Source: Pedobacter sp. BS3 (lineage in GTDB: Bacteria; Bacteroidota; Bacteroidia; Sphingobacteriales; Sphingobacteriaceae). Taken from it: a stretch of DNA of 64,000 bases. This document shows, piece by piece, positions 57,786 through 59,985 of the stretch. Positions within the stretch are counted from its first letter, which is position 1, and every line of letters starts with the position of its first letter. The DNA is taken from NCBI RefSeq assembly GCF_008274585.1, contig NZ_VTRT01000001.1, positions 682,001 to 746,000 of the forward strand. Direction: 5' to 3'. The translations under genes and the position numbers were made by a program. The notes beneath the pieces are model-generated. The model was not told where the DNA came from and did not search any database. It worked only from the letters and a program-made list of their open reading frames with translations.

Positions 57786-57971
57786 CGAGAAACGGCTTTG
57801 CGAAGGAGCGGAAATAGAAGCACAAAAGTTCAATTTAGCACTACCGTAGCATAAGCCATTTTCTATTTGCTAAATTACAAAAAAGGAAATAAAAATGGCT
57901 TATGCGGTGATAGAATTACAGACGTTGAGTTTTTTACTTAACCCGCTCTTTTGCAAAACCGATGTTAGCGG
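57786..57971 (-). other. attC-like recombination site of insert 2
   Basis: On the minus strand it reads CCGCTAAC (57971-57964), AT, CGGTTTTGC, four bases, GAGCGG; and at the far end CCGCTC, four bases, GCAAAGCCG, a 6-nt spacer, G|TT. These arms pair (one T-G wobble) and leave 2/6-nt unequal spacers, exactly as in insert 1. An internal 14-bp hairpin GCATAAGCCATTTT/AAAATGGCTTATGC fills the loop. The 186-nt length is at the long end for attC sites. The loop motif at 57817-57842 matches that at 52414-52439 with 3 differences in 26. Confidence 0.75.
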
Positions 57972-58516
57972 TTCGTTGTTTTCTCTTTTTTTCGTCTGTA
58001 ATGTAGTTGTGTTAATCCTGTCTCAAACGTTTTTGTATTCACAAGTTCAAGTTCTTGTTCGGGTCTGCCGTCTTTGAAAAGTCGTGTTCCATTGCCAAGC
58101 AATACAGGAACGACAGAAATAATGAACTCATCAATTAAGTCATTTTTCAAAAGTTCGTTTATTATTTCTGCGCCACCGTCACAATAAATATTTTTTCCGT
58201 TCTCTGATTTCAGTTGTCGTACCAATTCTGTCAAGTTTCCTGTATAAAATGTTGTCTTACCAATACTTGGTCTTTCTGTCCTTGTGATAACATACACGTT
58301 CCTTTCGCCATTGTCGTAGTGAGAAACACCGATTTCTTTAAGTACATAATCATAAGTTCTTCTACCAATAATCAATGTGTCAATAGTATCTGTGAATTCT
58401 GCATAACCATAGTCTTCTCCTGCTTTTTCAACAAGCTTTAAGAAAGTAAGGTCGTCATTTGGTTTTGCGATATAGCCGTCTAAACTTGTTGCAATAAAAA
58501 GTGATATTTTTCGCAT
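57965..58516 (-). CDS. RibD C-terminal/dihydrofolate reductase-fold protein, cassette-borne
   Basis: The 183-residue protein starts MRKISLFIATSLDGYIAKPNDDLTFLKLVEK, the usual opening of stand-alone RibD_C/DHFR-fold proteins. It continues with DTLIIGRRTYDYVLKE, VYVITRTERPS, NIYCDGGAEIINELLKNDLIDEFIISVVPVLLGNGTRLF. It binds NADPH and probably reduces a pterin-like or other small substrate; it is not a close relative of trimethoprim-resistance DfrA proteins. It ends KTTNR-stop in the attC core. It follows the AraC-like gene and may be its target. Confidence 0.85.
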   Translation of the reverse strand: MRKISLFIATSLDGYIAKPNDDLTFLKLVEKAGEDYGYAEFTDTIDTLIIGRRTYDYVLKEIGVSHYDNGERNVYVITRTERPSIGKTTFYTGNLTELVRQLKSENGKNIYCDGGAEIINELLKNDLIDEFIISVVPVLLGNGTRLFKDGRPEQELELVNTKTFETGLTQLHYRRKKEKTTNR

Positions 58517-58588
58517 TTGTTTTAAATCTTAATGTTTCTGCAAAGTTAGTTTTAGGCGACTATTTGCACTTTGTAAAAATGCGACATT

Positions 58589-59323
58589 TTAAAGTTGTGA
58601 TGGCAAAAGTCCTGTATTTCGTTTGATTTCATTAGTAAGATGCGAATGGTCATAATAGCCACATTCAAAAGCAATATCTAAAAAACTTCGATTTTTATTT
58701 GAATTTTTGATAATGCTCAAAGCCTTTTGAAAGCGAATAATGTTTGAATATTCTTTCGGGGATAGTCCAACAAACTTTTTAAAATTCCGCTCTAATTGTC
58801 TGACAGTTGTGAAATTTCGTTTTGATAATTCGTAAATGCTGATTTGTCCGTTTGTTGAATGAATATCATTAATAACCGATTGTAACGGATTATTTTTGAT
58901 TTTTATTCTCTCGGAAAAAAATTGGTTAAAATAGTCTGATGGGCTGTTGAGAATTTTAGCGACATTAAATGAATTGGATTTTTCAAACTCAATGGTATCG
59001 TTCGTCAATTCATTTTGTGGGGCGTAATTATAGAAATTAATAAAAGTCGCTGGTTTTAGACACACGCCTACTAAATGAGTATTATTATCAATAAAACTGT
59101 CTTTAAATGAAGTCATCGCACCAACTACATACGTTTTTCCAAACTCCATAGAAAGCGAACCGTTATCTGTTAAACAAGTATCTCCCAAATTTATTAATAT
59201 GCCTGCACAACCGTCCGGAAAAACCCGTTCCCATTGTTTTTCAAGTTCGTTTCCTTTCAGCTCCCAATAAAAATGAATAAAGGGCTTTAAGTCTTTGTCA
59301 GGTTTTATCTTTTTGTACTCCAT
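58589..59323 (-). CDS. AraC-family transcriptional regulator, cassette-borne
   Basis: 244 residues from the ATG at 59323 (MEYKKIKPDKDLKPFIHFYWELKG), which begins 36 nt after the cassette end. The open frame upstream belongs to the desaturase, not to this protein. The N-terminal domain (about 1-130) is of the DUF6597 type (VFPDGCAGILINLGD). The C-terminal double HTH contains TVRQLERNFKKFVGLSPKEYSNIIRFQKAL and FLDIAFECGYYDHSHLTNEIKRNTG. It likely senses a small molecule and activates the DHFR-fold gene 72 nt downstream (inference). Confidence 0.87.
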   Translation of the reverse strand: MEYKKIKPDKDLKPFIHFYWELKGNELEKQWERVFPDGCAGILINLGDTCLTDNGSLSMEFGKTYVVGAMTSFKDSFIDNNTHLVGVCLKPATFINFYNYAPQNELTNDTIEFEKSNSFNVAKILNSPSDYFNQFFSERIKIKNNPLQSVINDIHSTNGQISIYELSKRNFTTVRQLERNFKKFVGLSPKEYSNIIRFQKALSIIKNSNKNRSFLDIAFECGYYDHSHLTNEIKRNTGLLPSQL

Positions 59324-59985
59324 TGCTTTCTGTTGTGCACTCGATACAATGACCGCTAACATCCGGGTTAATTTTTTTAGGATATACTGCCGTGCTTCCG
59401 CGATAAGTATATTCCAGTTTTGACCGCTGTTTGCCGGCGCATTAATCATCACGAACCAGTTCTCGGAGCCTTCGGGAGCATCACCGGATTGACGTTTGGA
59501 GCTGATATTGATATAAATGGTAGGATCGTTACTGATGGTTTTGGTGTTGCCAGATATGCCTGAATTCATCCTCATAATCCTCACTGAAAAAGATATTATG
59601 CAAATCCAGTTGCTCAAAGCGCTTGCTGATGCCCCAGTAAAATATCAGGGCCGAACTGCTTCTTTCCTGGCGCAGTACACGTTTAGGGAAATTCCTTTCG
59701 TTAAGCAGTTGCCTGTAAGTAAACCAAACATCCATGTTTGAAACGATGACATCCGCGTTTACCTGTTTCCCGTTTACCTCAATACCGGTTACCCTGTTTT
59801 TGTCGGTAAGAATCCTGGTAACCTTTGAACGGTAGCTGAACTTCACGCCGGTTTCCGAAGCCAGTTTCAGCAGACTCCGCACAATGCTTTGCATGCCGTC
59901 ATCGGGGAAATATGCCCCGAAATGCTGCTCGAAATGCGGAATAATGTTTAAGGTTGCGGGAGCCTAGTAAGGGTTAGAGCCGTTG

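Follow-up and report, generated by a model that had tools for sequence, protein, structure and literature searches.

The window analyzed here, a stretch of 64,000 nucleotides from Pedobacter sp. BS3, corresponds to C1:682001-746000 of a 4.81-Mb draft genome, and contains a segment of 1574 bp (57786-59359, minus strand; referred to as cassette 1) inserted at a G|TT site in a carotenoid desaturase gene. This study focused on the insertion and on a group of tyrosine recombinases (referred to as Int-B), to which it is most likely due. On the minus strand, the left junction reads ...AATTAACCCGGATG, with the G at 59360, followed by TTAGCGG from 59359 (TTAGCGGTCATTGTA), and the right junction reads TTTCTCG ending at 57786, followed by TTAGGCGAAG from 57785; the flanks joined without cassette 1 give ...CCCGGATG|TTAGGCGAAGAT. 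A second, intact copy of the desaturase gene is present in the same genome (L035; C24:173508-174290, in a frame of 499 amino acids). The joined flanks were aligned with this copy by blastn at ~93% nucleotide identity, with no gap, loss, or target duplication at the junction: 92.7% over 634 nt for the portion upstream of the insertion (59360-59993, minus strand) and 94.3% over 245 nt for the 3' part (57531-57785, minus strand). The coordinates of the segment, its start TTAGCGG after the G at 59360, and the clean rejoining of the desaturase, all proposed in an initial annotation made from the sequence alone, were therefore exact. Two qualifications apply. Since homology with the intact copy begins only at 59993, the 5' part being missing, and one extra base is present, the window copy is a relic: the insertion is precise, as claimed, but the disrupted gene is a truncated duplicate and not the sole desaturase of the cell. 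Furthermore, the rebuilt target G|TTAGGC holds for the window copy, whereas the intact copy reads G|CTGGAC, and the core is thus specific to the window copy. By the criteria for transposons and insertion sequences, neither a transposase among the genes of the segment 57786-59359 nor a target-site duplication at its junction was found, in agreement with the exclusion of ordinary transposition in the annotation.

Cassette 1 carries two genes on the minus strand: one for a regulator of 244 amino acids (58589-59323) with DUF6597 (Pfam PF20240, 2e-20) and an AraC-type helix-turn-helix domain (PF12833, 1.8e-14), and one for a RibD_C (dihydrofolate-reductase-like) enzyme of 183 amino acids (57965-58516; PF01872, 2e-20). 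The stop codon TAA of the latter is located inside CCGCTAAC, the R'' core of an attC site of 190 nt (57780-57969, minus strand; R'' GCTAAC at 57969-57964 and R' GTTAGGC at 57786-57780). This site has complementary R''/R' and L''/L' boxes and an imperfect hairpin, the loop of which contains a 14-bp inverted repeat (I2). When folded as DNA, the minimum free energy was -28.1 kcal/mol (z -3.3), which none of 200 shuffles equaled, and a covariance model trained without this site (R1; see below) matched it at 77.8 bits (E 6.4e-16). The same cassette was found in an array of a Chitinophagaceae metagenome-assembled genome (L087): bases 1-1570 of 1574 at 83.9% nucleotide identity, with its start at the window boundary. 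When named genomes were searched with the RibD_C protein as query, 317 relatives were obtained; the best 80 of them were 80-88% identical and carried record titles from Bacteroidota. At 40 of these 80 loci, the gene just upstream in the same orientation encodes an AraC relative, whole or partial. The long foldable end, the stop codon in the core, and the carriage of a regulator and an enzyme gene as one unit, as read in the initial annotation, were thus all confirmed, as was the site itself by the type of covariance-model search that it had recommended. With G|TT borders, open reading frames, a 3' attC, no duplication, and recurrence in an array of another family, the segment 57786-59359 is an integron cassette at a secondary, non-attI site.

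A second cassette of 739 bp (52365-53103, minus strand), with predicted boundaries at G|TTAGCGGG and G|TTTCTC, is located 4.7 kb from cassette 1 within the same carotenoid cluster. Its open reading frame (52485-53051, minus strand) encodes a DUF5946 protein of 188 amino acids (Pfam PF19371, 1.9e-25), and its attC (52359-52489, minus strand) was matched by R1 at 94.4 bits (E 1.1e-19). The neighbors assigned by Pfam are ispH (LytB; 53147-53995) and a fatty-acid-desaturase-like gene (51669-52340), both in the same orientation as the cassette.

An attC finder with strict boxes returned almost nothing, while looser settings produced much noise and, at several loci, numbers close to those of shuffled sequence; therefore, only sites from clear arrays were used for the training of R1. 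These 15 sites (127-201 nt, with a recurrent loop) came from L080, L087, L068, L082, L097, and the C2 array of the Pedobacter genome (L031), and the site of cassette 1 and its L087 twin were left out. Three covarying helices were found in the alignment, with 91.4% of the cells paired and a score of 0.343 versus 0.124 for shuffled alignments (0/500) and ≤0.087 for slid controls. In the Pedobacter genome, where 150 of 1541 candidates were scored, R1 gave at least 32 matches at E≤10 and at least 31 at E≤0.01, clustering on C2, C12, and C21 together with scattered single sites.

No match over the cut-off was found in this genome with TIGR02249, the model of the canonical integron integrase (IntI). 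The best scorer (192.5 of 265 bits) was a tyrosine recombinase encoded at C21:431994-432830, in divergent orientation from an adjoining attC array; this is the Int-B of the strain, and no second one was found in the genome. Its best NCBIfam match was NF040815 (202.7 bits, below the cut-off of 220), and it was aligned with IntI4 (PDB 2a3v) in two separate segments, between which IntI4 residues 181-242 had no counterpart. At the position of patch III of IntI, an insertion of at least 8 amino acids was found in none of 48 Int-B rows, whereas the IntI-specific insertion (24-42 amino acids in gaps of 8 or more) was found in 16 of 16 IntI rows. In a tree of 79 rows, from which 5 near-identical rows, rows shorter than 230 amino acids, and exact duplicates were dropped, Int-B and IntI were separated together from XerC/D with a support of 100/100; IntI formed one clade, while a single Int-B group would need two changes. 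Among viral contigs, eight relatives were found, of which seven were 25-32% identical and the other was a short piece at 52%. Another recombinase (L028; C21:490430, a frame of 428 amino acids) was considered as the integrase of the array at C21:491846, and was rejected with a XerC/XerD match of 26% and no Int-B match.

Among the 101 genomes of the family searched, four others, all of genus g16, possessed an Int-B 99% identical to that of the strain over 279 amino acids, while the Xer loci of three of these four showed only 62-65% identity to its XerD. A platform of 1.2-1.3 kb is common to the five genomes at 98.7-99.0% nucleotide identity, and extends up to ...CGTTTCGTTAAAACAGATG|TT (ending in ACAGATG|TT). 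Beyond the crossover G, four continuations were found: L029 (the locus of the strain), L209, and L210 diverge mutually and from L213/L214 after 2-7 bases, while L213 and L214 are identical for 151 bases. Since a common border is followed by divergence just past G|TT, we infer that the attI of the Int-B platform lies there; the crossover would be ~170 bp from the ATG at position 10827 of L029 or 90 bp from an upstream ATG (10908). Arrays of attC follow this putative attI in L209, L210, L211, L212, L213, L214, and L216, and one weak site (24.8 bits) was found in L217.

The divergent layout of array and Int-B gene is shared by the type described above and by L280, L282, L267, and L274. In a second, co-oriented group, the gene has a site resembling TATAAACAAG|TT on its 3' side, in most cases at a distance of 90-135 bp, and the cassettes behind this site differ. 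Of 44 co-oriented loci, 13 have TATA[AT]ACAAGTT on the 3' side of the gene, versus 0 in ten shuffles, and 29 have TATAN(2-6)AGTT (0-5 in shuffles); a looser pattern (35 of 44 versus 17-24 in shuffles) was little better and was not used. The co-oriented layout is also seen on a plasmid of Chryseobacterium sp. SNU WT5 (L318), which carries an integrase gene at 8770-9813, with attC at 11172, 11888, 14274, and 17342 (32-47 bits). The draft contigs L338, L339, L340, L342, L290, L286, L222, and L343 (the last without the TATA motif) break off about 4 nt or less from the crossover G, a number that is biased because 15 of the 44 loci were chosen for a short distance to the contig end. Among 25 Int-B places with a low coordinate of up to 1000, it was the 3' side of the gene that faced the contig end in 22 (p 8e-5), and a contig stopping at G|TT suggests that more than one sequence exists behind attI. 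The Pedobacter genome also contains five copies (0-2 mismatches) of the motif TTGYGTATATTTGGGWG|TT, each directly before a cassette-like start: C1:233401, C1:1172318, C12:318338, C22:407618, and C2:50006. Downstream attC sites were detected for four of them, the exception being C1:1172318, and the reversed TTGYGTATATTTGGGWG pattern had no copy in this genome. Since the motif is also found near Int-B genes of other genomes (L204, L208, and L282), the five copies look like orphan attI sites; the motif contains TAnnTTTG, a promoter-like element of the Bacteroidota consensus type.

The distribution was assessed in 247 genomes of the class (presumably Bacteroidia). R1 detected attC in at least 151 of them, a lower bound because only ten candidates were scored per genome under stricter filters, and Int-B was found at E≤1e-45 in 127. 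Both were present in 103 genomes and neither in 72: the odds ratio was 6.4 (p 3e-11, uncorrected for relatedness). Physical linkage was then assessed in the first 20 Int-B places that were separated from the contig start by more than 10 kb, regions already fetched being excluded; two of the 20 were from genome G122. At ten of these loci, less than 1.5 kb of contig remains on the 3' side of the gene, too little for the array side to be judged; L292 and L293 have attC farther 5'. Within 2 kb of Int-B, attC was found at nine of the ten evaluable loci: L278, L280, L282, L287, L288, L289, L291, L295, and L297, the weakest being L278 at 24.5 bits (E 0.0044). The corresponding numbers for XerC/XerD-type control loci, drawn from the family and not from the genomes of the linkage set, were 0 of 20 within 3 kb and 1 of 20 within 9.5 kb (Fisher p 7e-7). 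L218-L224 (38-48% identity) were rejected as controls, since they are themselves Int-B loci, of the kind in which the array is located on the opposite side. Among six regions selected for attC alone, Int-B was located at the 5' end of the array in four (G171, G541, G366, and G409:C7) and was not found in G409:C1 and G501; G481, G460, and G381 were selected for Int-B and attC on one contig, and are no further proof of linkage.

These results suggested that the Int-B platform is integron-like in the sequence features tested, and apparently widespread: a tyrosine recombinase appears to be located beside an attI with G|TT, and attC sites in one orientation extend from there as an array, while the defining additional domain of IntI (the patch III region) is absent. 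As with integron gene cassettes, the units start with TT, contain one or a few open reading frames, end in a 3' attC with R''/L''/L'/R', share the G|TT crossover, and form arrays in one orientation; unlike known attC, the training sites have lengths of 127-201 nt and show a recurrent loop, and an Rfam scan of the window gave no family at gathering score. Int-B resembles canonical IntI (TIGR02249; IntI4 of PDB 2a3v) as a tyrosine recombinase with an adjacent attI and attC array that is grouped apart from XerC/D, but differs in the missing insertion, in scoring below the TIGR02249 cut-off, and in an attI located 5' or 3' of the gene according to the group. NF040815, the best (sub-cut-off) match, is named XerA, 'site-specific tyrosine recombinase/integron integrase', and the same product name is given to a plasmid relative. 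XerA is a chromosome-dimer resolvase; unlike it, Int-B sits at a putative attI beside cassette arrays. The C2 array of the Pedobacter genome, with no integrase within the 19 kb examined, and the C12 array, with no recognised Int-B, resemble clusters of attC sites lacking integron-integrases (CALIN), whereas arrays that a search for the IntI domain would presumably class as CALIN often carry Int-B.

On these grounds, we consider it probable that the two-gene cassette was put at a secondary G|TT of the decayed desaturase copy, most likely by Int-B, which would drive the cassette traffic of the class. In this mechanism, a cassette with its own attC would enter the relic by site-specific recombination, and the recombinase at C21:431994-432830, which is IntI-like without the IntI-specific insertion, would catalyze both attC x attI and attC x secondary-site reactions; the Int-B of the strain, rather than an incoming enzyme, may have acted in this particular case. 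The insertion itself is of a known kind, an integron cassette at a secondary site, the novelty lying in the platform that most likely serves it. Several observations weigh against this account. At the threshold used, 48 genomes of the class contain attC without Int-B, and 24 contain Int-B without attC; no attC was found near the evaluable Int-B locus L284 or near L215, the Int-B of which is 75% identical; and 15 of the 44 co-oriented loci have not even a loose attI-like motif. No Int-B was recognised at the Pedobacter arrays on C2, C12, and C21:491846-502222, the sole one found being that at C21:431994. The target of cassette 1 (TTAACCCGGATG|TT) agrees with the attI of the strain (TTAAAACAGATG|TT) at 11 of 16 positions by a measure picked post hoc, and that of cassette 2 at 7 of 16, which is no resemblance; since 121 of 10282 GTT sites score as high as the former, its likeness to attI is suggestive only. 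The tree contained neither XerA nor a phage-integrase outgroup, and does not distinguish a gain of the domain in IntI from a loss in Int-B. Furthermore, the additional domain, which Int-B lacks, is reported to be necessary for IntI activity (Messier and Roy 2001, cited in PMC2426708).

An alternative is that a canonical IntI was brought in transiently, by a plasmid or out of a different class, and placed the cassette at a site of the attG type, Int-B being a bystander Xer-like recombinase. Insertion of cassettes by IntI at such secondary sites was reportedly described by Loot et al. in 2024; it is likewise a precise chromosomal insertion at G|TT away from attI without duplication, whereas the present case is natural, in a Bacteroidota genome without a canonical IntI over the cut-off. 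In favor of this alternative, 70 of 247 genomes sampled in the phylum carry canonical IntI over the TIGR02249 cut-off, 69 of them outside the class. However, in the class sample canonical IntI over the cut-off was found in 1 of 247 genomes versus attC in 151. R1-type attC was found in 73 genomes of the phylum sample, and only 13 of the 43 belonging to other classes were positive for IntI. Moreover, no R1 match was detected within the 1.5-kb flanks of 16 canonical IntI loci, a result to be read with a model trained on the class and a short distance in mind, while Int-B is physically linked to attC and attI-like sites. This alternative is therefore unlikely. Movement of an attC-like hairpin element by another mechanism, such as single-strand transposition, with a secondary linkage to Int-B, is much less probable: some single-strand transposons are said to insert precisely without target duplication as here, but the regulator and RibD_C genes of cassette 1 are not accompanied by a transposase gene, the box architecture and arrays are those of attC, and the attI borders adjoin a tyrosine recombinase. 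An artefact of assembly or duplication within a decaying gene, without any mobile insertion, would fit the truncation and frameshift of the desaturase copy but is practically negligible, because cassette 1 recurs with the same start in another family, the insertion sits in a 1.3-Mb contig, and a second cassette is only 4.7 kb away.

IntegronFinder 2.0 names a single complete integron for Bacteroidetes proper, that of Salinibacter ruber, and further ones for Chlorobi and Ignavibacteriae (PMC9024848). Two surveys require the IntI domain; Bacteroidota are among the integron-bearing phyla in one (PMC9668308) and intI is reported in the Bacteroidetes/Chlorobi group in the other (PMC2426708). The term attG is mentioned in PMC12901181. 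No paper on integrons with domain-less integrases in Bacteroidota was found by titles and the beginnings of abstracts, among sources with no bioRxiv preprints and few subscription papers. Since these surveys select integrases by the IntI domain, the Int-B system seems to have been largely overlooked, and the statement of the initial annotation that integrons are seldom described in this phylum appears, for this class, to reflect a blind spot of integrase searches and not true rarity. We regard it as likely that Bacteroidota possess a large, overlooked group of integrons with domain-less integrases, two layouts, and attI and attC families of their own, and that this group would serve as the chief route of cassette exchange in the class. 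Should Int-B prove active, a system of this type has escaped notice in a class with attC in 151 and Int-B in 127 of 247 genomes; the IntI domain would also be dispensable for attC recombination, and its origin would become testable. A related case has been described for Riemerella anatipestifer, where aph(3')-IVb is integrated upon transformation in a homology-independent manner and carries along 27 bp of 5' sequence and a 3' stretch of 140 bp with an attC-like fold; its authors regard the mechanism as not yet fully elucidated (PMC13148043). Int-B is a candidate enzyme for this insertion, and the same overlooked system could also explain this homology-independent integration of a resistance gene.

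Several minor observations were made on the same elements. The Int-B integron of the strain (L029/L030; C21:432999-459505) has very long cassettes, including a kinase/TPR gene and a helicase-like open reading frame of 1735 amino acids; a TerD/vWA region of ~10 kb is bounded on both sides by detected attC sites, and genes for type I restriction-modification are located between attC 452738 and 459373. A second, more distant recombinase (35% to Int-B) is encoded inside the Int-B integron regions L211 (5437-6375) and L212 (6949-7887). On a Flagellimonas plasmid (L319, NZ_CP092416.1; 7041-9813), an Int-B gene, annotated as xerA, adjoins erm(F), and a dihydrofolate-reductase-family gene is also located beside Int-B, with an attC match of 47.3 bits adjoining. 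An Acinetobacter plasmid (L320, NZ_CP041297.1; 6028-8221) carries an Int-B-like recombinase fragment (48.7% identity) before tet(X3), with an attC match after tet(X3) at only E 0.037. In the window, an open reading frame at 56621-57307 with a sub-threshold match to Abi_2 (23.2 of 25.6 bits) adjoins the 3' end of the desaturase relic.

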